From the NCBI RefSeq assembly GCF_001990485.1, contig NZ_LBFC01000009.1:1-49952 (forward strand): DNA of 49,952 bases, in the 5' to 3' direction. The position numbers were made by a program, and so were the translations under genes. The notes under the pieces were generated by a model. That model did not search any database. It worked only from the letters and a program-made list of their open reading frames with translations, and was not told the origin of the DNA. Below are positions 11,187 through 49,674 of this stretch, piece by piece (the stretch's first letter is position 1; each line of letters starts with the position of its first letter). The DNA is from Thermosipho affectus (GTDB lineage: Bacteria > Thermotogota > Thermotogae > Thermotogales > Fervidobacteriaceae).

Positions 11187-11465
11187 TTATTTGTTTACTT
11201 TTTCCTTTAATTCCTTACCAGGTTTGAATTTTGGGACCTTTCTTGCAGGGATTGTTATTTTTTCTCTTGTTCTTGGATTAACTCCTGTCCTTTCCTCTGC
11301 TTCTCTTACCTCAAACGTTCCAAAACCAATAAGCTGAACTTTTTCTCCATTTGACAAAGCCTCAGTTATAGTTTCAAAAACCGCATCAATAACTGCTTTG
11401 ATATCTTTTTTCTTTAATTCTGGCATCTTTTCTGCTACCTTGTTTACAAGTTCCTTTTTACTCAT
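11187..11465 (-). CDS. hup: HU-type nucleoid DNA-binding protein
   Basis: 92 residues, the usual HU length, and clearly like Thermotoga maritima HU. Helical N-terminus (M-S-K-K-E-L-V-N-K-V-A), then the hallmark G-F-G-T-F-E-V-R (about 49-56), G-V-N-P-R-T-R-E-K-I-T-I-P in the DNA-clamping arm, and V-P-K-F-K-P-G-K-E-L-K-E-K-V near the end. It bends and compacts DNA as a dimer. The start is ATG at 11465, preceded by GAGGAGGG; an upstream in-frame extension has no ribosome site and is outside the family. A plausible promoter lies at 11507-11536. It is the third gene in a minus-strand run, but the promoter suggests independent expression. Confidence 0.95.
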   Translation of the reverse strand: MSKKELVNKVAEKMPELKKKDIKAVIDAVFETITEALSNGEKVQLIGFGTFEVREAEERTGVNPRTREKITIPARKVPKFKPGKELKEKVNK

Positions 11466-11506
11466 AACTTTTCCCTCCTCACATGTGATAGTTAAAATAC
11501 GTATAT

Positions 11507-11536
11507 AATATATCATTTTTTTACATCAGAATGCAA
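11507..11536 (-). promoter_or_regulatory. Candidate promoter of the HU gene
   Basis: On the minus strand TTGCAT (11531-11536), 18-base spacer, TATATT (11507-11512), 41 bases before the HU start codon. The -10 match is imperfect. Confidence 0.45.
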
Positions 11537-11537
11537 A

Positions 11538-12011
11538 TTATTTTCTAAAACTTTTTCTATAGAAATCATCTATGATTTTTGCAATATCAAATTTTGTCTT
11601 GTTTTCAGAAGAAATAACAAGATCCGCATCCTTTGAGAATGTAAAATGAAATTTTTCATACAAATCGTCTAAATTTTGAAATTTATCAGAGACCATCTTT
11701 ATCCTTCTAATAAATTTTTCTTTGGGGACCTTTATGTATACTACCTTTCCCTTGTAGCGATCCTTTTCCGCTATCAAACCAAGGGTAACTATTATCTTTT
11801 CATCAAACCTTTTAAACCTTTTTAAAAATTTTCTTTCAAGGTTTTCTAAAGTAACAAACCCATTGGAAAGAAGTATTGCATTAAATCTCTTTCCCGTTTC
11901 AAGGTTTAAAATTTCATCAAAATCGATTATATCGTAACCAAAATCTTCCTTTAAAATTTTACCCACAGCCGACTTTCCACTCCCAGGAAGTCCGATTATG
12001 TACAACGGCAA
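11538..12011 (-). CDS. Shikimate-kinase-like P-loop protein
   Basis: 157 residues. N-terminal Walker A G-L-P-G-S-G-K-S (7-14), then a D-F-D-E pair at about 30-33 that matches the Mg/shikimate-contacting D-x-D of AroK-type kinases, an E-x-x-x-L-K-R helix, and a lid-like R-R-I segment (about 101-103). The glycine triplet that binds shikimate is not present; the corresponding strand reads I-V-T-L-G-L-I. It may be a divergent shikimate kinase or a related nucleotide-dependent kinase. The start codon is TTG at 12011, behind GGGGGGATAT; no ATG is available. It sits 10 bases downstream of the YjbQ-family gene, so they are co-transcribed. Confidence 0.75.
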   Translation of the reverse strand: MPLYIIGLPGSGKSAVGKILKEDFGYDIIDFDEILNLETGKRFNAILLSNGFVTLENLERKFLKRFKRFDEKIIVTLGLIAEKDRYKGKVVYIKVPKEKFIRRIKMVSDKFQNLDDLYEKFHFTFSKDADLVISSENKTKFDIAKIIDDFYRKSFRK

Positions 12012-22658: not shown

Positions 22659-23429
22659 ATGAGAGATTTTTTGCTTGGTATTTTAATGGGTATTGCAAAT
22701 TTACTCCCTGGAATTAGTGGTGGTACTATTGCGGCAATTTCAGGAAGATACGATATAATATTAAAAGCATTTTCAGATTTATTATCCTTTAAAATTAAAA
22801 AAAATTCTTTAAAAACCGTTGCATTTCTTATCTTTGGTATAGCAATATCCATCTTGCTACTTTCTAAAATTCTTTCAAAAGTTTTTGAAAAATATCCAGA
22901 ATATTCTTATGGTCTTTTCTCTGGCCTCATTATCGGTGGACTTTTTTACCTTTTAAAAGAAATAAAGATAAAAAAAATCTCAAATTTTTCAATAATTACC
23001 TTCTCATTTGTTATCACGTATTTTATATTATCTTTCACTCAATCTGTAGAAAAATCAAATACAAATTTGTTTTACTTGTTTGTTAGTGGCATAATAGGTG
23101 CAGCCACCATGGTTCTCCCAGGCATTAGTGGCTCTTCCATGTTATTAATATTGGGAATATACAAACAAGTCATAGATGCTATTTCAAGTTTGGATTTTAA
23201 AATTTTGATACCCTTTGGTCTTGGCGTTTTATTTGGATTGATACTAATCGTTAAACTCTTAGAAATTTTAATGGAAAAATTCAGAGAAAAAGTTATTTCC
23301 TTTTTAATAGGCTTGACCTTAGCAGGTACATTTTTGATCTTCCCAGTCACTACAAAATGGTTTTCATATGTATACTTTGTATTGGGTATTCTTATCTCAA
23401 AATATCTAGAAGCAATTTTAAAAGAATAA
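22659..23429 (+). CDS. DUF368 (PopT-type) undecaprenyl-phosphate transporter
   Basis: 256 residues, about eight hydrophobic segments. Two copies of the family motif: G-I-A-N-L-L-P-G-I-S-G-G-T (11-23) and G-A-A-T-M-V-L-P-G-I-S-G-S-S (about 146-159), consistent with an inverted-repeat transporter fold. Members of DUF368 were shown to recycle the C55 lipid carrier across the membrane for cell-wall and surface-glycan synthesis; that role is transferred by family. GGAGGAG lies six bases before ATG. It has its own promoter and terminator. Confidence 0.88.
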   Translation: MRDFLLGILMGIANLLPGISGGTIAAISGRYDIILKAFSDLLSFKIKKNSLKTVAFLIFGIAISILLLSKILSKVFEKYPEYSYGLFSGLIIGGLFYLLKEIKIKKISNFSIITFSFVITYFILSFTQSVEKSNTNLFYLFVSGIIGAATMVLPGISGSSMLLILGIYKQVIDAISSLDFKILIPFGLGVLFGLILIVKLLEILMEKFREKVISFLIGLTLAGTFLIFPVTTKWFSYVYFVLGILISKYLEAILKE

Positions 23430-23627: not shown

Positions 23628-26600
23628 TCATTTTGAAATACTTTTAAGGTACTCAAAAATTTCTTCTTTTGTTTTTAAAGGTGTTGCATCAAACAAAACA
23701 TTACTCCAATCATCTATAACATTTTCCCACATATTATCTGTCATCTTAGAATATGTATCAAGCAATTTTTCTGCATTAAATTTCAAATCGTTTTCTATTA
23801 AAGCATAATGTGCTATAAACCTTGCATAAGATTCATATACGCTTACATATGTAGGATTGTTAATAAGATTTTGGATCTTTTCTCTGATGCTTAATATAAT
23901 ATTTGTACTTACACCCATCTTTTGTAATTCTGAAAGGAATTCATTTAAGTGTTTTACAATTATTGCACCCCATACACTGTTTTTAGGAACATCATACCAA
24001 CTTGAAGGATTCCTTAACACAACCTTTTTCATATAATTTGTTTCAACTGAAAGATAGTTGTAATTTTGAAAATCTCTATTTGCGTTATCTAAAGCTCTTT
24101 CAAATTCATCTTTGATCACTTTTATTGCACTATTTGGGATAGAGTTTTCTGTCAAGATATCCTCTATTTTTTTACCGTATTTTTCTTTCAAGTAATTTAT
24201 CTGATTGTCAAGTGATTTTTTGTACTTTGAAAGTTGTTTCTCTGCCATACCATATGAAGATTTATACACATCTTTAAGTTTCTCAAGTAAGTATATGGCC
24301 TCTTGCATCATTCCACTTTTGTAATATTCAAAGGCAGATGCGTGCAAGAAGTCAATTACACCATTTGGTACCCCCCAGACACCTTTTAAGTTCATATACT
24401 TTACAGCCTTTATTTCCATATTTGCAAGCCAATAAATAAAATCACTTACAGGTTTAACGGTGGGGGGTTGAAGTTTAAATATCATTCCCGTAAAAAATCT
24501 ATATATATCTTCTCCGCGCGAAGCCTTTGTAATATTTGGATTTTTCCAATCGGGAAATCTATTCCAACCACCTGGCATATTAATTATCGTCTTTTTGGCA
24601 TATTCTACGTACTTATCAAATGTAAGTACAACTAGTTTTTTAACTTCTTCTTTATATTGCTTTTCATCTATTAAAGAAAGCAACTTTCTCATCATTATAT
24701 GTAAACTGTGAAATCTCATCGCAAGTGCTTTATACGTATTTCTTTCGTTAAAACAAAGAAGTGAAGTTTCATACAAACTTATGGAATCTATAAGTGCTTG
24801 TGTGGTTGCAAAATCAAATTTATCTAAAATATCTTTGTTTTTTTCAATATAAGGTATAAGAACAGAAAGCCATTTATGTTTGACTTTCACAACCTTTTGG
24901 AAATCACTAAATTCTTGATTAAATATCTCCTTGTAGTTATGGTCCAAGTTTTTCTTTAAATTTTCTATTTCAAATTCCTGTACCGCTAGTGTTGCAAGGT
25001 AAAAATACGACTTGCCATACGTGTGATTTATCTTTACACTTTTTAGCAATTTTTCCTTTGCTTGGGTATAATATTGCTTAGCTAATGCCGGCATACTAGC
25101 TTTTTGCATCTTTATTTTTTCAAGCTGAGCTTTTAACTGTTTCCTTATATTTTCTATCTGTGCAATCCTTTGGTTTTCTATTTCAAATTCATTAAACGGT
25201 ATATTTTTATTTTTGTATTCTCTTATCTTTTGTTGCTCCCATACTTTTTTATTTAGATAAGAAAACTCACCTTGTTGTTTTTCCAATGCGTCCAGTTTTG
25301 ATTCAAGACTGGATATATATTCAGAAGCTTTTGGATATTCTTCGATAATTTTTGCAAAAGTAAGGTATGCCGCATTTCCATCTTTAAAATAAACTTCTGA
25401 TATAAAATGATTCCACCTCAAATAGGTTGAAGAATAAGATACAGTCAAAGCAAGTATTGATATTAATATTGCCTTACCTCCTGTTACTTCTTTTAATTTC
25501 CTCTTCGTAAAGTATGGACCAATCGCTAAACTTGCAAATACCGTTGCGGCAAGTGCGTTTGGCAAAAGATGTCCTGGAAAACTAAAGAAACTTTGAATGG
25601 CAAATCCCACTATGGAAATGGATAATGAAAGAAAAAGTAGTAGATCATCCCTCTCATCTATTTTTTTTGGAATTGTAAAAAAGTAATACACAAGTATAAC
25701 TAATAGTAAAACTATTAAAACAAATCCAACGGTACCAGTTTCACCAAGTACTTGAAAATAATCGTTGTGTGCTCTCTTAAAATTATTCCATCCATAGTAC
25801 AATTCTGGGTGTTTTTTCAAATATTCTCCCATCTTTGAAAGAGAAAGTAACTGGTATGTTCCTATACCACTCCCAAATATTTTGTGATCCTTCCACAATT
25901 CAAGTGAGGTAAACCATGACAAAAACCTTTCATCTTTACTCGAAACAGAACTCATAGCTTCAAATCTCTTTGTCATATTTACCTTTCCTTGACCGGTAAG
26001 TGGATTTTCCGTGTTGTATATAACTACTAAAAATATAGAAGCAACTATCAATATTGCAAACAACACATTGGTTAACTTCTTTACATTTCTATCAGAGTCA
26101 CACTTTTTTCCTTTTTTCCAAATAAAGTAAAACACTACATACATAACACTCATGATAATTATCGCAAGATATTCTGATCTAGTCTGCGAAACTATTACCG
26201 CGACAAATCCCGTTAAAAAACTAATTAAAGCAAAAATCTTTAAAACTAAAATCTGCCAAAACTTTGTTAAATTCATATTATATGCAAGTAAGAAATAAAG
26301 TGCAATAGGAAGAAGCATATCTATGTAGTTTGCCGCAAAAATAACATTCCCAACACTTGCTTTAATTGAAGCCCTTGTAAAAGGTGCACCCACCCTTCCA
26401 AGGAAAAAGTCATATCCCGTATAAAAATTTAAAAGTGCATCAATAGAGATTATAAATCCCGTTATCATAAAAACAAAAAGAAGTGAGTTTATTCTATTTT
26501 TCTCCTTATACTCACTACTTATATAAAAAGCAACTAATACGTTAAAAAGCACATAAAGTCCTATATCAAAAGATTGTCTAAAGTAAAAGGGATTATACCT

Positions 26601-26846
26601 TAAAACGTTAAAACTTGAAATTATAGATACAATTGCAAAGAAAAACCAAATTACGTGCGCAGTTGAAATGTAAAATGAAATTTTCTTTTCTTTTATCCAT
26701 TTGACTGCAAGATATGTAAATAATATGGAAATTGAAAGTGTTAAAATAGCATACTTTGGAACACTAAATTCGTAAGTATATTTTGGACTTGCAAATAACG
26801 CTACTAGCACAATAGTAATTTGAAGCAACAAATCTTTAAAAATCAA
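23628..26846 (-). CDS. O-antigen ligase/polymerase-like membrane protein with long C-terminal domain
   Basis: 1072 residues. The first ~470 are about 12 hydrophobic segments with the Wzy/WaaL-family central loop, including T-R-S-E-Y-L near residue 220 and the H-N-D-Y-F-Q-V-L-G-E-T-G motif (about 360-371) before a membrane helix, typical of enzymes that ligate or polymerise lipid-linked glycans. Residues ~470-1072 are charged, alpha-helical and repeat-like, probably TPR-type or coiled; such a tail is about as long as the enzyme itself. Start is TTG at 26846 behind AAGGAGGG. Divergent from the exported-protein operon, with back-to-back promoters. Substrate is unknown. Confidence 0.85.
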   Translation of the reverse strand: MIFKDLLLQITIVLVALFASPKYTYEFSVPKYAILTLSISILFTYLAVKWIKEKKISFYISTAHVIWFFFAIVSIISSFNVLRYNPFYFRQSFDIGLYVLFNVLVAFYISSEYKEKNRINSLLFVFMITGFIISIDALLNFYTGYDFFLGRVGAPFTRASIKASVGNVIFAANYIDMLLPIALYFLLAYNMNLTKFWQILVLKIFALISFLTGFVAVIVSQTRSEYLAIIIMSVMYVVFYFIWKKGKKCDSDRNVKKLTNVLFAILIVASIFLVVIYNTENPLTGQGKVNMTKRFEAMSSVSSKDERFLSWFTSLELWKDHKIFGSGIGTYQLLSLSKMGEYLKKHPELYYGWNNFKRAHNDYFQVLGETGTVGFVLIVLLLVILVYYFFTIPKKIDERDDLLLFLSLSISIVGFAIQSFFSFPGHLLPNALAATVFASLAIGPYFTKRKLKEVTGGKAILISILALTVSYSSTYLRWNHFISEVYFKDGNAAYLTFAKIIEEYPKASEYISSLESKLDALEKQQGEFSYLNKKVWEQQKIREYKNKNIPFNEFEIENQRIAQIENIRKQLKAQLEKIKMQKASMPALAKQYYTQAKEKLLKSVKINHTYGKSYFYLATLAVQEFEIENLKKNLDHNYKEIFNQEFSDFQKVVKVKHKWLSVLIPYIEKNKDILDKFDFATTQALIDSISLYETSLLCFNERNTYKALAMRFHSLHIMMRKLLSLIDEKQYKEEVKKLVVLTFDKYVEYAKKTIINMPGGWNRFPDWKNPNITKASRGEDIYRFFTGMIFKLQPPTVKPVSDFIYWLANMEIKAVKYMNLKGVWGVPNGVIDFLHASAFEYYKSGMMQEAIYLLEKLKDVYKSSYGMAEKQLSKYKKSLDNQINYLKEKYGKKIEDILTENSIPNSAIKVIKDEFERALDNANRDFQNYNYLSVETNYMKKVVLRNPSSWYDVPKNSVWGAIIVKHLNEFLSELQKMGVSTNIILSIREKIQNLINNPTYVSVYESYARFIAHYALIENDLKFNAEKLLDTYSKMTDNMWENVIDDWSNVLFDATPLKTKEEIFEYLKSISK

Positions 26847-26932: not shown

Positions 26933-28123
26933 GTGAAAAAACTTATCATACTTTTTTTCATCCCAATAATTATTTTTTCAAAGCCGTTAATAATAATTAA
27001 CGTACACGCACCGGAATACTCTGAGATTTTCTATGCAAATGTACAAGGTATCTTCGGTGAAAATAAATTTGAAATACTACTAAAAGATGCCTTAAAAAAA
27101 TTGGGGTTTGAAGTAAAACTTCAGGATCTACTTTCTGGTGAAAATATTATCCTCAGTGAAAACGTACAATCTCCTTTAGTTTTGAATTTGTATTTAAAAA
27201 ATTTTAGTGTAACTATTCAAAGTAAAGAAAAATTTTTTCTGGAAAATAATGCATCTGGAAACTACATAAATGTAAATGGAAAATACATAAAAGTATACGT
27301 TGGAAAATGGTACGATGCAAATGGCGGAAAAGATGGGATTTTTGTAAAAGGATATGATGGAAATCTATACTCTGCAACATCATTTTTCACAAAATTCTAC
27401 CACATCTTGGAATATTTTATCGTAAAAGGTAAAATATATTACAACTTCGCCGGAAAAGATGGGGAAATAGAAATAAACAAAAAAATTAAAAAATCGTGGT
27501 ATGAATGGAACGAATCAATCCAAAGTCCTATAAAAAAAGAAAATAGCTTTTTTATAGATCAAATTGCAGAAACAATTGCATATAATCTATTGAATAAACT
27601 AAAATACAATATTAAAGCAAATGTAGTTGCATTAAAGGATAATAGAGTAGTTTTAGACGTCGGAAAAAATGACGGAGTTAAATTAAACACGGTATTTAGT
27701 GTAGATGAAAAAGCACAGGTAATTGTAAGAAATGTGGAAAAAAATTTTTCAGAAGCAGAAGTTATTTATTTAAAAAAAGGAGAAAAGATAATCCCAAAAG
27801 ACTTGGCAAAAGAATCTTCCAAAATGGTTTCTTTACCATTTGAACTTGGAATTTATTATTCCACAGAAGGTCTTCTCTTTTCTTTTGGTCTTGTCCAAAA
27901 AAATATTCACAACGAAAAAATCGCATTTTTAGATATCAAAACATCGGATTTTAAAATTTCTAGATATGATATGGGATTTAGAATCTTCGATTTTGAAAAG
28001 TTTGGAGTATTTTTAACATACTCCATAAATGCCCCTGGAATACTTTTGAGATATCAATTTTTGGACTTTTTCATCAAATTTAACAAAGAAAATTACACGA
28101 TAGGAGGTGGAATATCGTGGTAA
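26933..28123 (+). CDS. Exported protein of unknown function, envelope operon gene 1
   Basis: 396 residues. Signal peptide K-K-L-I-I-L-F-F-I-P-I-I-I-F-S (2-16). Around residues 100-150 lies a module with N-Y-I-N-V-N-G-K-Y and Y-D-G-N-L-Y-S-A-T that reappears in the next protein. At about 225-285 a V-V-L-D-V-G-K-N-D-G-V-K-L-N-T-V-F-S-V segment resembles the C-terminal barrel domain of FlgT-type proteins. The last ~90 residues alternate hydrophobic and polar and end G-G-G-I-S-W, as in outer-membrane strands with a terminal aromatic. GTG at 26933 is chosen: AAGGAGGG lies six bases upstream. Overlaps the next gene by seven bases. Not assigned to a known family. Confidence 0.75.
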   Translation: MKKLIILFFIPIIIFSKPLIIINVHAPEYSEIFYANVQGIFGENKFEILLKDALKKLGFEVKLQDLLSGENIILSENVQSPLVLNLYLKNFSVTIQSKEKFFLENNASGNYINVNGKYIKVYVGKWYDANGGKDGIFVKGYDGNLYSATSFFTKFYHILEYFIVKGKIYYNFAGKDGEIEINKKIKKSWYEWNESIQSPIKKENSFFIDQIAETIAYNLLNKLKYNIKANVVALKDNRVVLDVGKNDGVKLNTVFSVDEKAQVIVRNVEKNFSEAEVIYLKKGEKIIPKDLAKESSKMVSLPFELGIYYSTEGLLFSFGLVQKNIHNEKIAFLDIKTSDFKISRYDMGFRIFDFEKFGVFLTYSINAPGILLRYQFLDFFIKFNKENYTIGGGISW

Positions 28124-29880
28124 AAAAAGCAATATTTCTTATCTTATTGCTTCCAATTCTTTCTTTTCAAACAGTAATAATAAAATCCGATTATAACTTT
28201 AACATAAAAAAAGAGCTTTTTGAAAGCAATAATCTTGTAGTAATAGAAATATTCTCCGTTGAAAAAGAAATTACTTTAAAGAAAGTTATAAATTATATCA
28301 AAGATGAAAAAGGGCATTACATAACCTACAATGGAAACTACTATTACACAAATGATAAAAAAAGATATAACCTTCAAGATGATAAGTTTGTAGTTGACAA
28401 AAATGGCATTTATGTTTATGCAACCAACTTTCCTTGGGCAAGAGACGAACATCAAAAATACATAATAAGTGATTTTTACAGAAAAGAAATAATAAATAAA
28501 AAAGAAGAAAAGTACTATGTTTCAGGTTATTTAACCGAAATAGATTCTTTTTATATAAAATCTTTTACACCTTTTGTGTTTAAAGTAAAAAAATTCGATG
28601 AAGTAGAAAAAAAACTCTTAAATTTGAAAAAAAACAAAAACAACTTTTACAGTGACAAATACGATGTAGTTGTAAATTTTTCAAATACTCAAAACAAACT
28701 AAAGGCATTTATTATGGAAAAGCTACAACAAGATAAAAGGTACAACATCTACGATAGAGATTACATAAGAGAAATATTAAAAGACGTAGCAATAAAAGAC
28801 CTATTTGGAGAAATATCGTTTGACTTTCGTGTACCAAAATACATAATCAACATTAAAACCATAAATTTTCAAAAAAGAATAATGAAAAAAGACTTAGTCG
28901 ACTTTTTTCCCAATGAAATGTCAGGAAGATACCTAATAAGTGGTGAAAAAGTAGAATTGGGAAGATACTACAAAGAAGGAGATGATAACAGCTACATTCT
29001 AGATAAAAAAGAAGGTAATTACGTTAAGATATTAAACTTTCCTTGGAGAAAAGAGCGTTTTAAACTTGCAAGTAATTTCTATGATCTGTTTTTTGTAAAA
29101 AATGTTGAATATATCAACTACCATCTATCTATTTTACTAAATATCATAGATACAAAAAATGCAAAAATAATTTTCGCTAAAACCTTTAAAGCTTCTATTA
29201 ATATTCCACAAACATTCTACTCAAAAAGATTGGTAATACGAAATGAAAAGATTGAAAAAATAAACAACCTTTTCAAAGATATCTCAAAAGCCATTAATAA
29301 AAAATTAAAAGAAGTCTTCTACTTATCAAGTGTGGTAAAAGATGTAAAGGGGTTAACTGTCTTTCTCTACGACGGAGAAAACATTGGAATAAAAAAAGGG
29401 CAAGTTTTTAGAATTTTCAACAATCACCTAACACAAGGATATATAAGAATAAAAGAGGTAGGACAAAATAATTCAAATGGTAATATATTCCGCTCAATTG
29501 AACCAATAGGGAAGTACTCACTTGCCATGGAAAGTTTCTACTATCCTTCTAGTCTAAGTTTTTCAATGATTTTTGAATACAATGATATTCCAATGGTAGG
29601 TGCAAAAATAAACTTTTTAGACTTATACGGCTCTGAAAATTATTCAATTTTATTTGGTTTCTCACCACAAGTCTATTATATAGGAATTTCCAAAAGAATC
29701 TATTCTTTTGACTTTTCAGTAAAATTATTTCTAAAAGAAACCGAATACTACATTTCCCCAGAAATATCAATCACCTCTTTTAAAAGAAAGTCTAAGTTCT
29801 TACCAATTGGTAGTGGTATATCGTTAGGGATAAATTTATTAAGCAAAAAGTTAATATTTGGTTATGAATCTTCATTCTAA
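28117..29880 (+). CDS. Exported protein of unknown function, envelope operon gene 2
   Basis: 587 residues. Signal peptide K-K-A-I-F-L-I-L-L-L-P-I-L-S-F. Two copies of a module are visible: G-H-Y-I-T-Y-N-G-N-Y ... Y-A-T-N-F-P-W (about 65-110) and G-R-Y-L-I-S-G-E ... V-K-I-L-N-F-P-W (about 270-310). After about residue 185 a stretch resembles CsgG/TolB-type lipoprotein folds (V-V-V-N-F-S ... D-R-D-Y-I-R-E-I-L). At about 410-450 a G-E-N-I-G-I-K-K-G-Q-V-F-R-I segment parallels the FlgT-C-like part of gene 1. The C-terminus is strand-like and ends E-S-S-F. GTG start at 28117 after AGGAGGTGG. Probably partner of genes 1, 3 and 4. Confidence 0.72.
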   Translation: MVKKAIFLILLLPILSFQTVIIKSDYNFNIKKELFESNNLVVIEIFSVEKEITLKKVINYIKDEKGHYITYNGNYYYTNDKKRYNLQDDKFVVDKNGIYVYATNFPWARDEHQKYIISDFYRKEIINKKEEKYYVSGYLTEIDSFYIKSFTPFVFKVKKFDEVEKKLLNLKKNKNNFYSDKYDVVVNFSNTQNKLKAFIMEKLQQDKRYNIYDRDYIREILKDVAIKDLFGEISFDFRVPKYIINIKTINFQKRIMKKDLVDFFPNEMSGRYLISGEKVELGRYYKEGDDNSYILDKKEGNYVKILNFPWRKERFKLASNFYDLFFVKNVEYINYHLSILLNIIDTKNAKIIFAKTFKASINIPQTFYSKRLVIRNEKIEKINNLFKDISKAINKKLKEVFYLSSVVKDVKGLTVFLYDGENIGIKKGQVFRIFNNHLTQGYIRIKEVGQNNSNGNIFRSIEPIGKYSLAMESFYYPSSLSFSMIFEYNDIPMVGAKINFLDLYGSENYSILFGFSPQVYYIGISKRIYSFDFSVKLFLKETEYYISPEISITSFKRKSKFLPIGSGISLGINLLSKKLIFGYESSF

Positions 29881-29885
29881 ATTTA

Positions 29886-29894
29886 TGATATAAT
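29886..29894 (+). promoter_or_regulatory. Internal extended -10 promoter before the CsgG-like gene
   Basis: TGATATAAT in the 34-base gap between envelope genes 2 and 3. Suggests genes 3-4 can be expressed apart from genes 1-2. Confidence 0.55.
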
Positions 29895-29914
29895 TTAAAT
29901 AAGGGGGTGAAAAA

Positions 29915-31099
29915 ATGAAAAAAATTGTATTCTTATTTTTACTCTTTTTTGGAATAGCTTTTGGTATTACTATAAGTGAAAAAACGGGTTTGGTAATCTT
30001 ACCTGCAAAAGTAGGAAATGGTTGGAATATGGATGAAGCAGATTACTTAATATCACTACTTGAAGAAAAAGCATTATCCCTTGGAAGATTTAGGGTTTTT
30101 TCAAGAAATGATTTAGATATGATAGTAAAAGAACGAAACCTTGCAGATCTGGGAATAGTAGAACAAACCTTTGAAGCGGGAAAGATTTTGGGAGCAAAAT
30201 ACGCTGTTTTGCTCACATTAACGGAACTTTCCGCACAATACGAAAAAAACGGCTACACCGCAAGCCTACGTCTTTCCTTAAAACTTTACAATTTAAGCAC
30301 AGGAGAACTTCTAGCTGCAAAAACCTTTGATAAAAGTACTTACGTTGAAGAAGAAACATCACAAAAGGCTATAAACAGCCTATTAGAATTGATATCTGAA
30401 GATATTTGGATTACCTTAAGGGAATTTTTTAAAGTAGAAGCATATGTAAAACGCGTGGAAAACGGGAAAGTATACCTTGCAGGTCTAGATCCAAATATCG
30501 TCAAAAAGGGATTTATATTCAAAATCGAAACCTCAGAAGGAGATGTGGTATACGCTAAAGTTATAGGCGTGGATAGAAATGAAAATCTCGTCATTGCAAA
30601 AATAAAGTACGGCGGTAACCCATCAGTATATGATCCTGCCTTAGAATATCCTATTTCCAATACTTTTGGAAGTTTTTCGATTGGAATGTACGCTGGAAAA
30701 ATATCCTTAGGAATCTTTGGATATAGCAAAAATATATTTGCGGATATTGGCATTATTTTATCTTCTGAACTTGGATATGTGCCTGGTTATTCAACTGTCG
30801 GTGGAATAATAGAACTTTTTGAAATGGGACAAGTTAGTGTTTCTGGATTTGGAGGATTACAAATTCTTGGAATATATGATACAAACAGTGAAAGTAGTGA
30901 TTCTTTCTTAAACGTATTTGGAGTTAGCGGTGGAATACAACTAAAGTATGAATTTGAACCAAAAAATGGTGTATTGGTAAACGTCGGATATACTATGTTA
31001 TTCCCAGGAGACCTTGTAAAATATATTTATGAACAACTATTTGGAATAGATAAAACATCGTTTACACAAATTAGTCTTGGATACTTTATGTCATTCTAA
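29915..31099 (+). CDS. CsgG-family exported protein, envelope operon gene 3
   Basis: 394 residues. Signal peptide K-K-I-V-F-L-F-L-L-F-F-G-I-A-F-G (2-17). Residues ~22-170 fit the CsgG/FlgO-type fold: V-I-L-P-A-K, L-E-E-K-A-L-S-L-G-R-F-R-V-F-S-R-N-D-L-D, then E-A-G-K-I-L-G-A-K-Y-A-V. CsgG forms a secretion pore in curliated bacteria and FlgO a flagellar outer-ring part; there is no lipobox here, so pore formation cannot be assumed. Next comes a beta domain with V-Y-L-A-G-L-D-P-N-I-V-K-K-G-F (about 188-202), then a glycine-rich barrel-like C-terminus ending S-L-G-Y-F-M-S-F. GGGGGTGA precedes ATG. The next gene starts 11 bases after its stop. Confidence 0.82.
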   Translation: MKKIVFLFLLFFGIAFGITISEKTGLVILPAKVGNGWNMDEADYLISLLEEKALSLGRFRVFSRNDLDMIVKERNLADLGIVEQTFEAGKILGAKYAVLLTLTELSAQYEKNGYTASLRLSLKLYNLSTGELLAAKTFDKSTYVEEETSQKAINSLLELISEDIWITLREFFKVEAYVKRVENGKVYLAGLDPNIVKKGFIFKIETSEGDVVYAKVIGVDRNENLVIAKIKYGGNPSVYDPALEYPISNTFGSFSIGMYAGKISLGIFGYSKNIFADIGIILSSELGYVPGYSTVGGIIELFEMGQVSVSGFGGLQILGIYDTNSESSDSFLNVFGVSGGIQLKYEFEPKNGVLVNVGYTMLFPGDLVKYIYEQLFGIDKTSFTQISLGYFMSF

Positions 31100-31110
31100 G
31101 GAGGAAAAAT

Positions 31111-33132
31111 ATGAAAAAAATTACGTATATAATGCTACTCATTTTGGCATTTTTTCTCTTTTCTTGCAACAACACTGAGAGTAAAACTACCACAAATAAT
31201 GATTTTTCCATTCCATATGGGTTTATCGGCGCTTTTGGAGAAGGCATCTCAGATTCAGAGGGAAAGTCTGAAGAAATAGCTAGAAAAGAAGCTCTAAGAA
31301 AGATTTCCGAGCAAATATTTGTTGAAGTAAAAAGCAATTCAACGTTGTACGAAAATCTCATTCAAATAACAGATGATGAAAAAGTAAAAGAACAAATTGA
31401 AACAAAATTAGAAAGTGTTATACAAACAAACGTGAGTATTGAACTTGTAAACGTAGACTTTACATTAGTAGATAAAAGGTATGAAAACGGAAAATACTAC
31501 ACAAAAGTTCTAGGATTACTGGATAAAGACACAGCACTAAATACTTACAAAGTATATTTTGCAATAAAACTTGGCCAATCACTTTTAAAAGACAAGATGA
31601 TATACAGTGCTCAAAGGATAGTAAAAGAATACGAAATACTCTTATCACAAAACAAAACACAAATACCTGCAAATATGTTTTCTAGCTTAACCCAAATCGT
31701 ATCTGAAATAAAGATTGAATGGGAAAAGGTTAACGAACTATACAGGCAATTATCACAAAAGGAAATAAAGAACACTAATGAAGCACTTAAATTGCTTGAG
31801 GGTATAGATAAGATAAAGGAATTTTCAAAAGACTTTCCCGAAAACAAATTAATTTCTTTAAGGGAAAAAGCACAACCTTTTTTAAAAGATGTTGTATTGA
31901 AAATAGAAGGTCCTGATAAAGTGTCTGTGGGAATGAGAATAGATTTAACCGTAAAGTTAACTCCAAATATAGATGATATTGTTTTAAAAGTAACATCTAA
32001 AAATGGAGATTTTCCAAAAAATATTTCACTAAAAAATGGTAAAGCAATATTAAGCGGTGTAGTGAAGAATAAAAACATAGAAGTGGAAATCTCACTTGGG
32101 GGCGTAATTTCCAAAAAATACGCACCTGGAACAACCCAGGGAACTGGTATTTCTTCACAAGAAACAGGTAAATTACTGAGAATTTCTTCCGAAGGTGCAG
32201 GCAACACACGTGAAAAAGCAATAGAAAAAGCATTGATACTAGCTGTAAAGAAAGCAATGGGAATGTTATTTGCAAATGATGTAAATTTACTTTTGAGTTT
32301 ACCCGTAGACGCTGAATTAATCGATTCTCTAATTGGTGTTCTACAATATGAAATAGTCAACGAAGATACAAAAAATGGGATATATCATGTGGTACTCAGC
32401 GTAAGCTTTGAAAAAGATAAATTCAAGGATTTAGTAAAAAAGATAATAAATAACAAACCCCTTGGATATGCTGTCTTAGTGGTAAATAACGATCAATATG
32501 GCTATATAGAACCATACATTGAACAAAGGCTAATCAACTCCGGTATAAAACTTGTTTCCAAAGAATATTCCAAAAACTTAGTAGGTTACAAAGATCCAAA
32601 CCTTTTATCAAAACTTGCACTCTTATCCGCAGCCAAATACGTTATAAATGTTAAAGTAAGTTATGGTGAAAAATACTTACAAGGCTATGAACTGTGGTCT
32701 GTAAGATTACTACTCAATGTCCAATTAATAGATACATTCTCTGGGCAAATAATAAAAAGTCTTACCTTTGAAGATACAGGAGCAGGTGCAACAAAACAAT
32801 CTGCTCTTTCCAAAGTGTTAAATAAAGAAAAATTTGTAAATTTCATGAATAATCTAGTAGGTAACTTAAGAAAAGAAGAAGATTTGGCGGAAAATAAAGT
32901 AAAACTAATATTTAATGTTTCACGTTCTACCTATGTATTAGTTCTAAAAGATTATTTAAATGAGATGTTTAAAAAAGTAAACTTGATTGAAAGAACACCA
33001 AAAAAAGGAGTTTTTGTAATTGAAACATCCGAAAATTTAGAATTAATAATCAAAAAAGTAAAAAACATTCCCAATTTAAATATCAACGTCCTGGAAATAA
33101 AAGATAAAGAAGTAGTATTTAATATAAAATAA
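31111..33132 (+). CDS. LPP20/FlgT-like lipoprotein, envelope operon gene 4
   Basis: 673 residues. Lipoprotein signal with lipobox L-F-S-C (C19). Two related domains: residues ~37-160 open with G-A-F-G-E-G-I-S and E-I-A-R-K-E-A-L-R-K-I, an LPP20/FlgP-like pattern; residues ~355-460 open with I-S-S-E-G-A-G-N-T-R-E-K-A-I-E-K-A-L, like the N-terminal domain of flagellar FlgT. Between them is a helical stretch and a beta-sandwich-like segment (about 265-340). The C-terminal 200 residues are not recognised. AAGGAGG precedes ATG. CsgG-like and LPP20-like proteins often work together at the outer membrane, which supports a joint role with gene 3. Confidence 0.8.
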   Translation: MKKITYIMLLILAFFLFSCNNTESKTTTNNDFSIPYGFIGAFGEGISDSEGKSEEIARKEALRKISEQIFVEVKSNSTLYENLIQITDDEKVKEQIETKLESVIQTNVSIELVNVDFTLVDKRYENGKYYTKVLGLLDKDTALNTYKVYFAIKLGQSLLKDKMIYSAQRIVKEYEILLSQNKTQIPANMFSSLTQIVSEIKIEWEKVNELYRQLSQKEIKNTNEALKLLEGIDKIKEFSKDFPENKLISLREKAQPFLKDVVLKIEGPDKVSVGMRIDLTVKLTPNIDDIVLKVTSKNGDFPKNISLKNGKAILSGVVKNKNIEVEISLGGVISKKYAPGTTQGTGISSQETGKLLRISSEGAGNTREKAIEKALILAVKKAMGMLFANDVNLLLSLPVDAELIDSLIGVLQYEIVNEDTKNGIYHVVLSVSFEKDKFKDLVKKIINNKPLGYAVLVVNNDQYGYIEPYIEQRLINSGIKLVSKEYSKNLVGYKDPNLLSKLALLSAAKYVINVKVSYGEKYLQGYELWSVRLLLNVQLIDTFSGQIIKSLTFEDTGAGATKQSALSKVLNKEKFVNFMNNLVGNLRKEEDLAENKVKLIFNVSRSTYVLVLKDYLNEMFKKVNLIERTPKKGVFVIETSENLELIIKKVKNIPNLNINVLEIKDKEVVFNIK

Positions 33133-33170
33133 ACACCGCAAATTAGAACAAAAAATCAATTTATAATTAA

Positions 33171-33213
33171 AAAAACATGGCTTTGGAACTCTACCGGAGC
33201 CATGTTTTTTTAT
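33171..33213. terminator. Bidirectional intrinsic terminator
   Basis: Long stem: A-run plus ACATGGCT (33175-33182) pairs with AGCCATGT (33198-33205), with inner pairs GG/CC closing a seven-base loop. A-run and T-run flank both sides, so it can serve the envelope operon and the convergent repeat-protein gene. The 230 bases from 33133 to 33362 hold nothing else recognisable. Confidence 0.85.
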
Positions 33214-33362: not shown

Positions 33363-34346
33363 TTACATAGATATATCCAAAACAACACTAAACAACATCA
33401 TATTTGCTACTTTCTTTGGATTTGTTGGATCGCTTATGTCCACTATTACTAAACCATTAGAATCATCTGCAACATATGCATATCCTTCTAAAACGTATAT
33501 CCCACATGCAGAACCCTCTGTATCTAAATATCCCACTTTCTTTGGATTTGCTGGATCGCTTATATCTACTATTACTAAACCATTTGTATAATCTGCAATA
33601 TATGCATATTCTCCTGAAACGTACACTCCATTTGCACTCCCTTTCGTATCTAAACATCCTACCTCCTTTGGATTTGCTGGATCACTTATGTTCACTATCA
33701 CTAAACCATTAGAACCATCTGCAACGTATGCATATTTTCCTGATATGTATACTTCAATTGCATAACCTTCCATATCTAAATGTCCTATTTTCTTTGGATT
33801 TGTTGGATCACTTATATCTACTATTACTAAACCATTTGTATAATCTGCAATATATGCATATTCTCCTGATACATATACCCCACCTGCAATGTTATCTGTA
33901 TCTAAATATCCCACTTTCTTTGGATTTGCTGGATCGCTTATATCTACTATTACCAAACCATTTTCATAATTTGCAACGTATGCATATTCTCCTAAAACGT
34001 ATACTTCTCTTGCAAGATCATACGTATCTAAATGCCCCACTTTCTTTGGATTTGTTGGATCACTTATGTCTACTATCACTAAACCATTTTCATAGTCTGC
34101 AACGTATGCATATTCTCCTGAGATGTATATTCCCCATGCACTTCCTTTCGTATCTAAACATCCTACTTTCTTTGGATTTACTGGATCTGTTACATCTATT
34201 ACAAATATTCCTTTACTATATCCAGCCGCATAAATATATTTTGCAGAACTTTCAATTTGTTGATTTGCATTTGTTAAACAACCTTCCAAAAATGCCAAAA
34301 ATATTATTAGAAGTAATATTATTCCAAGCTTTTTTCCTCGTAACAT
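33363..34346 (-). CDS. LVIVD-repeat surface lipoprotein
   Basis: 327 residues. Lipoprotein signal (basic start, hydrophobic helix, lipobox L-E-G-C with C23). From residue 37 come six full 42-residue units and one cut-short seventh, each with Y-A-Y-V-A-D-x-x-N-G-L-V-I-V-D-I-S-D-P and N-P-K-K-V-G: the LVIVD repeat, a beta-propeller blade. The last 15 residues (V-A-N-M-M-L-F ...) leave the pattern abruptly, so the end may have been lost by repeat recombination or a frameshift. ATG at 34346 is preferred over GTG at 34355, which lies in the AAAGAGGTG site. It is probably a surface adhesion or binding protein; ligand unknown. Confidence 0.88.
   Translation of the reverse strand: MLRGKKLGIILLLIIFLAFLEGCLTNANQQIESSAKYIYAAGYSKGIFVIDVTDPVNPKKVGCLDTKGSAWGIYISGEYAYVADYENGLVIVDISDPTNPKKVGHLDTYDLAREVYVLGEYAYVANYENGLVIVDISDPANPKKVGYLDTDNIAGGVYVSGEYAYIADYTNGLVIVDISDPTNPKKIGHLDMEGYAIEVYISGKYAYVADGSNGLVIVNISDPANPKEVGCLDTKGSANGVYVSGEYAYIADYTNGLVIVDISDPANPKKVGYLDTEGSACGIYVLEGYAYVADDSNGLVIVDISDPTNPKKVANMMLFSVVLDISM
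33411..34238 (-). repeat. Tandem 126-base coding repeats
   Basis: Six complete and one partial 126-base units in frame with the LVIVD protein. Neighbouring units are very alike at DNA level (for example the segments encoding N-G-L-V-I-V-D-I-S-D-P), so unit number can change by recombination. Confidence 0.9.
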
Positions 34347-34561
34347 ACTACACACCTCTTTCTTAGAAAATTTCTTGTCATTTTAAGCATACGAAAAATT
34401 TCAAACTTTCTACTAATAAATTATAACATTATACTTTGTAATCATTAATCAATAAGATAAAATAAGCGGTAAATTCAGATCGTATATTTTAATGAAAACC
34501 TCACTGATTCAAATATTTTCTTAATTTCAAATGGTTAGTCGCAGTCTAAGATAGTATTAAA
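34347..34561. other. Gene-free stretch, AT-rich
   Basis: Upstream region of the LVIVD gene. It has TATAAT-like sequences on the minus strand near 34417-34432 that may serve that gene, but no clear -35. No open frame with a ribosome site and no repeat was seen. Confidence 0.5.
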
Positions 34562-46303: not shown

Positions 46304-47169
46304 GATATCTTCCATTAACCTTAGTAGTCCTCTTTTGGGGGCTTTCTTTTATTTCAACAAGTGTGGTGGTAAAGGAAATAAGCCCACTTTTTGCTGCATT
46401 TATGCGGTTTTTAATAGCATTGCTGGTTTTATTTATAGTACCTAAAAAGAGAAAAATAGATTTATTCAACATTCATAAAATACTTGCGGGATTTTGGGGA
46501 ATTACAATGTATTTTGTCGCAGAAAATTTTTCTCTAAAATTTACCACCCCCACAAATGCCGCAATGATAGTTTCTACAGCACCGATTTGGTATATACTTT
46601 TTACCCAAATTGTACACAAGAAAAAAACACATATATTTCAATATATTGGCTCCACCATTGCAATCGTTGGAGTAGGACTTGTTATTTTAAACGGTAGATT
46701 GTACCTTAACGTTAACCCTATAGGTGATTTGCTTGCATTTGGAGCTGCACTTTCTTGGGTATTTTATACACACCACATTGTAAAACTTTCCGATCATTCA
46801 TCGATAACTGCCGTCTTTGAAATTACTTTTTGGGGTGTAGTTACTTTAATACCATTTACCTTTGTTGAATATGCATATTTTACTCCAAAGATTATTTTTT
46901 CAATTAATGTTGTTTTTGGATTACTTTACCTTGGTATACTTTGCTCTGCTGTGGGATACATTCTCTGGAACAAATCAATTGAAATACTAGGAGATAGAAC
47001 AACAACAAATGCCGTATATATCATTCCGATTGTAACTGCCATATTTGAAAATATTCTTTTTAAAAGATGGCCAACATTTTTGCTAGTTTCAGGTATAATA
47101 TTAGTTGTTACAGGATTATATATTTTTGAAAAGTTCGAAGAAAGGAGAGAAAAATATGGGAAAGAATGA
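46300..47169 (+). CDS. EamA/DMT-family transporter
   Basis: 289 residues, ten hydrophobic segments as two five-helix EamA repeats: first repeat L-F-W-G-L-S-F-I-S-T, second G-A-A-L-S-W-V-F-Y-T. Substrate unknown: an amino acid or metabolite exporter is typical. Start is GTG at 46300 (GTGA overlap with the preceding stop), GGAGG seven bases upstream. Its last 14 bases overlap mreB. Confidence 0.9.
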   Translation: MRYLPLTLVVLFWGLSFISTSVVVKEISPLFAAFMRFLIALLVLFIVPKKRKIDLFNIHKILAGFWGITMYFVAENFSLKFTTPTNAAMIVSTAPIWYILFTQIVHKKKTHIFQYIGSTIAIVGVGLVILNGRLYLNVNPIGDLLAFGAALSWVFYTHHIVKLSDHSSITAVFEITFWGVVTLIPFTFVEYAYFTPKIIFSINVVFGLLYLGILCSAVGYILWNKSIEILGDRTTTNAVYIIPIVTAIFENILFKRWPTFLLVSGIILVVTGLYIFEKFEERREKYGKE

Positions 47170-48163
47170 TTTAGGAATAGACCTTGGAACTGCAAACTTT
47201 TTGGTGTATCAAAAAGGAAAGGGAATTGTACTTTACCAACCCTCTGTGGTGGCAATTTCCAAAAAAACGGGTAAAATCATTGCAATAGGTGATGAGGCAA
47301 AAGAAATGATAGGTAAAACCCCTGAAGAAAGTATCGTTGCTATTAGGCCAATGAAAGACGGGGTTATAGCCGACTATACTATTATTTCAGAAGTACTTAA
47401 GATGTTTATAAAGAAAGTAACAAAGGGATTTTTCCTAAAACCAAATATGGTTATTGGAATACCAGCAAAAACTACAACAGTGGAAAAAAGAGCGGTATTT
47501 GATGCAGCTATGAGTGCTGGTGCTAAAAAAGTATATGTTGTATCTGAACCACTTGCAGCTGCAATTGGGGCTGGAATTGACGTTACAAAACCAGAAGGAA
47601 ATATCATCGTCGATATAGGTGGTGGAACAACGGATATTGCGGTGATAAGCTTGGGTGGAGTCGTTGTGGGTGATTCGGTAAAACTTGCAGGAGATTCCAT
47701 GGATGACTCAATCGTAAAGAGTGTAAGAAAAATTCTTGGCCTAATAATCGGTGAATCAACAGCTGAAGAAATCAAAAAAAGAATAGGAAAAGCACATCCA
47801 GAAGTAGAAGATTTTGAAATGGACGTAAAGGGAAGAGATGCAGTAACAGGACTTCCTAGAACAGACAAACTTAACTCCAATGATGTTTATAAAATTTTAA
47901 AACCAATAATTGAAAATTTAATATCTAGAATAAAAGTGGTACTTGAAAAAACACCTCCAGAACTTTCTGCAGATATAATGGAAAAAGGTATTGTTATAAC
48001 AGGCGGCGGGGCATTGTTAAGGGGTATTGATAAGGCCATTTACGATGAAATAGGTGTACCATGTAAAATCGCAGAAGATCCATTAACATGTGTTGCAAGA
48101 GGTACAGGAATTTTACTAGAGGATGAAGAATTATTAAATGAGGTGGCAGTAACATACGAATGA
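47156..48163 (+). CDS. mreB: Actin-like cell-shape protein MreB/Mbl
   Basis: 335 residues. Actin fold: phosphate-1 loop G-I-D-L-G-T-A-N (8-15), R-P-M-K-D-G-V-I-A-D-Y, phosphate-2 D-I-G-G-G-T-T-D-I-A, and adenosine motif G-G-G-A-L-L-R-G. It forms membrane-bound filaments that guide wall synthesis. ATG at 47156 follows AAAGGAGAG and sits inside the EamA end. The two rod-protein genes follow at nine and fourteen bases, the same order as Bacillus mbl-flhO-flhP, hence the Mbl alternative. Confidence 0.95.
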   Translation: MGKNDLGIDLGTANFLVYQKGKGIVLYQPSVVAISKKTGKIIAIGDEAKEMIGKTPEESIVAIRPMKDGVIADYTIISEVLKMFIKKVTKGFFLKPNMVIGIPAKTTTVEKRAVFDAAMSAGAKKVYVVSEPLAAAIGAGIDVTKPEGNIIVDIGGGTTDIAVISLGGVVVGDSVKLAGDSMDDSIVKSVRKILGLIIGESTAEEIKKRIGKAHPEVEDFEMDVKGRDAVTGLPRTDKLNSNDVYKILKPIIENLISRIKVVLEKTPPELSADIMEKGIVITGGGALLRGIDKAIYDEIGVPCKIAEDPLTCVARGTGILLEDEELLNEVAVTYE

Positions 48164-48172
48164 GGTGAAAAT

Positions 48173-48874
48173 ATGTACAAAGGAATTTATCTTGCATCCA
48201 TGGGAATGCTAGCAGATATTACAAAACTTGATACCCTTTCAAACAACATATCAAACGCTGAAACAGCTGGGTATAAATCTGATTCTTTGGCATTTAAAGC
48301 ATATTTTGATAAAAATTTGTACTCTTTCAACCCTATGCCCCAAGAAAAGAAAGTGGAAATAAAAAAAATAGGTAATTTTGAACAAGCACTCATTCTGGAT
48401 CAGGTGAAAACCAATCTTTCACAAGGCGTAATAGAGCATACGGGAAATGCATTAGATTTTGCAATTGATGGCGAAGGTTTCTTCGTATTGGAAAATAATG
48501 GAAAAAGGTTATACACGCGTGCTGGAAACTTTAAAGTAAATGATGAAGGCTTTTTAGTAAACTCTGATGGAGCCTATGTTTTAGGAAAAGATGGCCAAAA
48601 ACTTAAGGCAGATGATAATTTAATTGAAAAAATATTGGTGGTTGATTTGGAAAATCCTAAAAAGATAGGTTATACGTTCTTCGAAGGACAAGAAAAAGCA
48701 AAGAAGAATTTTAGGATTTTACAAGGTTATATAGAAAAATCAAATGTAAACATAGTACGTGAAATGGTTAAGATGATCGAAGCAACAAGACATTATGAAA
48801 CTCTATCAAAGGCCGTTACAGTTCACGATGAACTGCTTAATAAATCTATTAACTCTGCGGGAAGTTTAAAATAG
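48173..48874 (+). CDS. flgF: Flagellar rod protein FlgF/FlhO type
   Basis: 233 residues. N-terminal rod motif L-D-T-L-S-N-N-I-S-N-A-E-T-A-G-Y-K (about 21-37), central G-N-A-L-D-F-A-I-D-G-E-G-F-F, and C-terminal Q-G-Y-I-E-K-S-N-V-N-I-V-R-E-M-V-K-M-I-E. These are the FlgBCFG family ends. It is shorter than FlgG (next gene), fitting the proximal-rod protein. GAGGTGA precedes ATG. Exported by the flagellar type III system, without a signal peptide. Confidence 0.88.
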   Translation: MYKGIYLASMGMLADITKLDTLSNNISNAETAGYKSDSLAFKAYFDKNLYSFNPMPQEKKVEIKKIGNFEQALILDQVKTNLSQGVIEHTGNALDFAIDGEGFFVLENNGKRLYTRAGNFKVNDEGFLVNSDGAYVLGKDGQKLKADDNLIEKILVVDLENPKKIGYTFFEGQEKAKKNFRILQGYIEKSNVNIVREMVKMIEATRHYETLSKAVTVHDELLNKSINSAGSLK

Positions 48875-48888
48875 GAGGTGTTTAAGAA

Positions 48889-49674
48889 ATGATTAATGGT
48901 CTTTACACAGCAGCAACGGGAATGTGGGCTCAACAATTTAAATTGGATACTCTTTCAAATAATATCGCCAATGTGGATACTGCAGGTTACAAAAAGGTAA
49001 AGACAGAATTTCAAGACCTCTTGTATGATTACTCTAAAAACGCCGGCGCTGCAACTGCTCAAAATTCGTTACATCCTACCGGCATATATGTAGGACATGG
49101 AACAAAATTATCCGCAACAACACGAATCTTTACACAAGGAAATCTTGAGAGAACAGGAAACTCATTAGACTTGGCAGTTTCTGGTGATGGTTTTTTCCAA
49201 GTACAACTCCAAGATGGTAGAATAGCATACACAAGAGATGGACAATTCAAAGTAGATGGTAATGGAAGAATAATTACAAGCAATGGTAATCTACTCTCAC
49301 CTAATATTGTTGTCCCACAAAATGCGGTAGCACTAAGTATATCACCAGATGGTATTGTTACTGCTGAACTTCAGGACGGAACTCTACAAAATTTGGGAAC
49401 AATTACATTAGTAAGGTTTATAAATCCTTCAGGTCTAAAAGCTATAGGTGATAATTTATACCTTGAAACTCCTGCAAGTGGCGCACCTGTAGAGGGCACA
49501 GCAGGACAAGATGGATTTGGAACGATTCTCCAAGGATATGTGGAAAAATCAAATGTTGATATAGTAAAAGAAATGGTAGATATGATAAGTGCAATGAGGG
49601 CATACGAATTAAATTCAAGAACCGTTCAAACTGCAGATGAAATGTTAAGAACCGCAAGCAATATGAAGAGGTAA
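48889..49674 (+). CDS. flgG: Flagellar distal-rod protein FlgG
   Basis: 261 residues, the canonical FlgG length. L-D-T-L-S-N-N-I-A-N-V-D-T-A-G-Y-K-K (about 22-39), G-N-S-L-D-L-A-V-S-G-D-G-F-F and C-terminal Q-G-Y-V-E-K-S-N-V-D-I-V-K-E-M-V-D-M-I-S-A-M-R-A-Y-E. AGGAGGTG precedes ATG. Follows flgF by 14 bases. A hairpin comes after the stop at 49672-49674. Confidence 0.95.
   Translation: MINGLYTAATGMWAQQFKLDTLSNNIANVDTAGYKKVKTEFQDLLYDYSKNAGAATAQNSLHPTGIYVGHGTKLSATTRIFTQGNLERTGNSLDLAVSGDGFFQVQLQDGRIAYTRDGQFKVDGNGRIITSNGNLLSPNIVVPQNAVALSISPDGIVTAELQDGTLQNLGTITLVRFINPSGLKAIGDNLYLETPASGAPVEGTAGQDGFGTILQGYVEKSNVDIVKEMVDMISAMRAYELNSRTVQTADEMLRTASNMKR

Follow-up and report, generated by a model that had tools for sequence, protein, structure and literature searches.

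Four consecutive genes of Thermosipho affectus encode exported proteins that we judge, at about even odds (probability roughly 0.5), to make up a non-flagellar envelope scaffold of the FlgT/CsgG type, that is, an outer-membrane-anchored ring or tether together with a membrane-anchored partner. The genes occupy positions 26933-33132 of the window, by which we mean the whole stretch of 49,952 nucleotides that was analysed (contig NZ_LBFC01000009.1; 31% GC). Domains of this type are already known to build rings in flagellar, curli and Pel systems. New here is their fusion to predicted outer-membrane barrels of their own, in three paralogues accompanied by an LPP20 partner and set in no flagellar or curli context. 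The system is probably undescribed so far, and searches of the literature on Thermotogae with CsgG, or on Fervidobacterium with curli, returned nothing relevant.

Layout and genomic setting of the operon

All four open reading frames lie on the plus strand, where the sequence-only reading had placed a run of exported proteins: gene 1 (P1, 26933-28123), with a GTG start after AAGGAGGG; gene 2 (P2, 28117-29880), also starting with GTG; and gene 3 (P3, 29915-31099) and gene 4 (P4, 31111-33132), both opening with ATG. Successive spacings of -7, 34 and 11 nt make this a compact operon, and each gene is preceded by a purine-rich Shine-Dalgarno sequence. That of gene 2 (28100-28116, plus strand) falls inside the terminal GGG codons of gene 1; between 28090 and 28135 gene 1 ends in a conserved GGG-x-S-W, which serves at the same time as the Shine-Dalgarno sequence and the start of gene 2. 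Across genera the two genes usually share this overlap of 7 nt. Reading and folding of the sequence located an intrinsic terminator that closes the operon at 33168-33212 (plus strand; -24.9 kcal/mol, z -8.6), a hairpin which, since it carries both an A-tract and a T-tract, is possibly bidirectional. A promoter and terminator scan gave a yield no higher than that from shuffled sequence. Against two relatives, dN of genes 1-4 ranges from 0.15 to 0.50 with dS saturated, conservation being highest in gene 3 and lowest in gene 1; at such low dN the genes look to be under purifying selection.

The divergent upstream neighbour (23628-26846, minus strand) encodes a Wzy_C O-antigen ligase/polymerase-type protein and is treated here as context outside the system. 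It adjoins the operon in all four congeners and lies a few kilobases from genes 1 and 2 in four Fervidobacterium genomes. However, it occurs in 97 of 103 Thermotogota genomes, with or without genes 1-4; tested as a functional partner, it proved nearly universal, hence not specific to the operon. At 22659-23429 there is a gene resembling an undecaprenyl-phosphate translocase. Directly downstream and convergent with the operon is a gene for a seven-repeat LVIVD beta-propeller with an exported N-terminus (33363-34355). The earlier remark that no curli or flagellar genes lie beside the operon holds for its immediate neighbours but not for the window at large, in which mreB followed by two flagellar rod genes of the FlgF/G type occupies 47105-49674, about 14-16 kb away.

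Domain content of the four proteins

Gene 3 has been described from its Pfam match, a structure model, Foldseek and a family alignment. A signal peptide without a lipobox is followed by a CsgG/FlgO/PelC-like domain (residues 24-171), a FlgT_C-like domain (172-245) and a predicted 8-stranded barrel of OmpA size (250-393) ending in F. The CsgG/FlgO-type fold proposed for it is borne out by a Pfam CsgG match of 1.7e-6 (27.9 bits, cut-off 20.8) and by the model, which was built from eight sequences and has a mean pLDDT of 79.5. In this model an alpha/beta domain and a small beta domain precede eight antiparallel strands at 250-393; the strands, together with the terminal aromatic residue (F in 14 of 15 homologues), predict an 8-strand outer-membrane barrel. 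Foldseek against the PDB placed FlgT first (3w1e, 5.4e-10) and the Vibrio LPHT ring next (5.1e-9), followed by the lipoprotein GNA1162, PelC and CsgG. The barrel part matched OmpA (TM 0.59 by OmpA length) and Ail; unlike the OmpA/Opacity-type barrels, the one in gene 3 comes after periplasmic domains. Searches of PDB sequences with phmmer and profiles gave no meaningful relative.

Searched individually, genes 1 and 2 gave no Pfam match; they are connected to gene 3 through their families. In single pairwise profile-profile comparisons, the gene 1 family aligned with that of gene 3 at 96% (E 2.6e-9) and the gene 2 family at 97.5% (E 6.4e-12), and the families of genes 1 and 2 aligned with each other at E 1.6e-28; judged by these profiles, the three are paralogues. 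Individual members of the gene 1 family also match FlgT_C weakly (0.016), and individual members of the gene 2 family match CsgG, again weakly (0.0026). Gene 1 consists of a signal peptide, a CsgG-like alpha/beta core, a FlgT_C-like segment and a short strand-rich C-terminal domain ending GGGISW; gene 2 has the same kind of core and segment before a strand-rich C-terminal domain ending in F. A beta-rich module is inserted into the core of gene 1 at the position of the CsgG TM1 hairpin. In the alignment of genes 1 and 3 the additional residues fall at a hairpin tip (gene 3 residues 110-114), and this hairpin of gene 3 corresponds to the first membrane hairpin of CsgG. Gene 2 contains the module twice, at residues 240-345 and, as a second, N-terminal copy, at 37-143. 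The last residue is F in 11 of 12 members of the gene 2 family and W or F in all 13 of the gene 1 family. The profile links, the FlgT_C match and these counts agree with the earlier description of genes 1-3 as carrying a FlgT-C-like segment and ending in W or F after strand-rich sequence. Homology and the terminal aromatic residue suggest that genes 1 and 2 would likewise end in outer-membrane barrels. A test of alternating hydrophobicity in the C-terminal tails was not significant, and their alternation is not used as evidence.

Gene 4, a protein of 673 residues, was correctly recognised from the outset as an LPP20/FlgT-type lipoprotein; its lipobox reads LFSC, with the cysteine at position 19. 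The N-terminal part comprises an LPP20/SHS2 domain, a helical bundle and an Ig-like domain, and is followed by a second LPP20/FlgT_N-like domain, a FlgT-M/CsgG-like domain and a C-terminal alpha/beta domain. The LPP20 match (2.6e-5) scores 25.0 bits for the open reading frame, just below the cut-off of 25.9, and 30.3 bits, above it, in a six-frame search. Across the family, LPP20 is matched by ten of 12 members (E 0.1 or better) and FlgT_N by four of 12, the best value being 7.9e-6. A model made from two sequences (mean pLDDT 64.9; good for roughly residues 40-340 and weak in the second half) contains two SHS2-like units, the helical bundle, the Ig-like domain and a FlgT-M-like domain, and its top PDB match is again FlgT (5.3e-5), ahead of PelC, GNA1162 and CsgG. 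Structure prediction thus assigns FlgT-like folds to both gene 3 and gene 4, and the relation to FlgT and CsgG on which the sequence-only reading had staked its case stands for these two proteins. In the first SHS2 unit a long insert separates the helix from the second strand, a likeness to the FlgP/LPP20 family; in the FlgP/FlgT family one structural study has linked such an insert with ring oligomerisation (PMC12222027). Gene 4 differs from that family in its length and in having two LPP20-like domains and other modules. The lipobox is shared with relatives in genera g1 and g5 and is absent from the Fervidobacterium homologues, whose N-terminal hydrophobic segment lacks it, so anchoring may differ there.

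The closest structural parallel, FlgT of the Vibrio H ring (3w1e; LPHT ring 8z5n), helps to place both proteins. Gene 3 corresponds to its M and C parts, and gene 4 to an N/LPP20 part with an M-like domain. Whereas FlgT unites N, M and C in one protein, here they are split over gene 3 (M and C) and gene 4 (N and M). Features that set them apart from FlgT are the outer-membrane barrel of gene 3 and, in gene 4, the Ig-like domain, helical bundle and lipid anchor.

Distribution and gene order

Family searches of the T. affectus genome gave one CsgG and one LPP20 match, and the two are neighbours. Conservation of gene order across Thermotogae, which had been expected of a genuine system, was found in part: the order of genes 1-4 is kept in all four congeneric genomes, but elsewhere the genes occur as two modules, one of genes 1 and 2 and one of genes 3 and 4. 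Wherever intact copies of both were recovered, genes 1 and 2 sit side by side. The two modules lie apart in Fervidobacterium and others, with genes 3 and 4 often adjacent in swapped order; in two Fervidobacterium genomes these two genes are unlinked. The rpsP-rplS-lepB block that adjoins genes 3 and 4 in Fervidobacterium consists of housekeeping genes and was discounted as functional context.

Genes 3 and 4 each have matches in 23 of 103 Thermotogota genomes. With weak matches included, they occur in an identical set of ten of 38 genera (p about 2e-9, ignoring phylogeny), a count in which the gene 3 match of genus g10 is a homologue of gene 2; with strong matches only, six genera are common to sets of seven and seven (p 2e-5, uncorrected for phylogeny). 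The gene 3 architecture also extends beyond the phylum. In a Spirochaetota sample 64 of 149 genomes gave some match, and about ten of them have a protein of 480-500 residues. Two of these were scanned with Pfam; both match CsgG and the Opacity porin family, and one also matches FlgT_C. At the six Spirochaetota loci that were read, the 480-500 residue protein adjoins a 200-residue gene outside known families. The original proposal of an envelope machine of the toga must accordingly be narrowed: at 23 of 103 genomes, and with the architecture also present in Spirochaetota, gene 3 is no Thermotogota-wide toga component. Scans of viral contigs with the families of genes 2 and 4 gave no matches.

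Variants on the same domains were also seen in the surveyed genomes. In Fervidobacterium, genes 4 and 3 are flanked by genes for short LPP20-like proteins of 220 residues that begin with a hydrophobic segment (L143:6518-7180 and 11203-11874). Two Fervidobacterium paralogues of gene 3 (L141:67-2316 and L142:1148-3532) have a fibronectin-III domain and propeller-like repeats in place of the barrel. Other Thermotogota carry a three-gene operon of LPP20-like, VWA/LPP20 and LPP20/TPR proteins (L121:1059-6488, L122:3436-8814, L118:6946-12433 and L135), and in another family of the phylum a 586-residue open frame contains a near-complete CsgG domain (G029:C15:27115-27612; 4e-25).

A candidate envelope scaffold and its alternatives

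As an envelope scaffold, the system could work as follows. The predicted C-terminal barrels of the exported proteins of genes 1-3 would insert into the outer membrane, the toga, holding the CsgG-like and FlgT_C-like domains in the periplasm just beneath it. By analogy with FlgT, PelC and CsgG, these domains may build a complete or partial ring, possibly a hetero-oligomeric one. Gene 4, membrane-anchored and LPP20/FlgT-like, would dock on this layer through its own FlgT-like domains and tie it to a second layer, either the inner membrane or the peptidoglycan. Hetero-assembly, the membrane that anchors gene 4 and a part in scaffolding instead of transport are what we infer. A published precedent for anchoring by a CsgG-like protein is HfaB of the Caulobacter holdfast, which anchors a surface structure (PMC6707917); the comparison is with its published description only. 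A bolder version seems possible but less likely: the three FlgT/CsgG-type barrel proteins would assemble into one hetero-oligomeric collar beneath the toga, and the lipoprotein of gene 4 would connect that collar with a second layer. Made of the kinds of parts that build the Vibrio flagellar H ring, it would serve as a toga anchor or as a new export or attachment complex, a dedicated machine of Thermosipho-type bacteria.

The structural matches also invite a flagellar explanation, with the proteins forming a ring like the H/T ring or the basal disk round the flagellar rod at its passage through the toga, comparable to what FlgT, FlgO and FlgP form in Vibrio. FlgT is the top match of genes 3 and 4 and the LPHT ring close behind, the rod genes lie about 15 kb off in the same window, and FlgI is present in every genus with gene 3, although it is present in 33 of 38 genera overall (p 0.2). 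The operon nevertheless stands outside any flagellar operon, no flagellar gene adjoins it, and FlgI is on a separate contig of the T. affectus genome. FlgI occurs in 84 of 103 genomes, a poor fit to the 23 with gene 3, and FlgI without genes 3 and 4 is found in genus g4 of the same family as well as throughout family f2. The flagella of Spirochaetota, where the gene 3 architecture recurs, are periplasmic. Because of the disparity with FlgI and the Spirochaete relatives, a general flagellar role is unlikely. Also improbable, in our estimate, is help in glycan export, with genes 3 and 4 as a PelC-like ring below the outer membrane guiding a polysaccharide made with the Wzy_C protein. PelC, the periplasmic dodecamer of Pel export and a ring of twelve beneath the outer membrane (PMC12141448), is among the best structural matches (TM 0.71 by PelC length for the core of gene 3), and the neighbouring Wzy_C and translocase-like genes would suit such a role. 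Yet Wzy_C occurs irrespective of genes 1-4, and PelC is a lipoprotein partnered with the 16-strand PelB, whereas gene 3 has no lipobox and the proteins here carry the domain and a small barrel in one chain. These predicted barrels are too narrow for polymer export; beside genes 1-3 no PelB-like 16-strand barrel was recognised, and no pel genes are among the Pfam-matched neighbours of the operon.

A pore that secretes amyloid or other proteins fares worst; the sequence-only reading had mentioned secretion pores among the structures that such folds build in proteobacteria. The alpha/beta core of gene 3, its Pfam score and the Foldseek match to CsgG speak for a curli-type pore, but the region of the second pore hairpin has 15 residues against 37 in E. 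coli CsgG, so that this hairpin is missing, and that of the first is shortened to 35 against 46. Gene 3 further differs from CsgG in lacking a lipobox and in its additional FlgT_C domain, and its membrane insertion is predicted to occur through the separate 8-strand barrel. Among curli components the search covered curlin repeats, and none were found in the T. affectus genome; an hhalign comparison with E. coli CsgG as a lone sequence gave no usable information. Since the second hairpin is missing, the first shortened and curlin not found, a CsgG-type pore is disfavoured, and we think it highly improbable. A role as LpoB-like proteins that regulate or tether peptidoglycan synthesis at the outer membrane is very unlikely, too. 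Weak LpoB Pfam matches in relatives and a generally similar class of fold point that way; against it, LpoB is a small lipoprotein with neither FlgT_C nor a barrel, and three paralogues with an LPP20 protein would be unexpected.

As components of a scaffold, genes 1-4 are concrete candidates for holding or organising the toga, the little-understood outer sheath of these bacteria. The recurrence of the gene 3 architecture in Spirochaetota suggests that they belong to a wider, overlooked envelope family.
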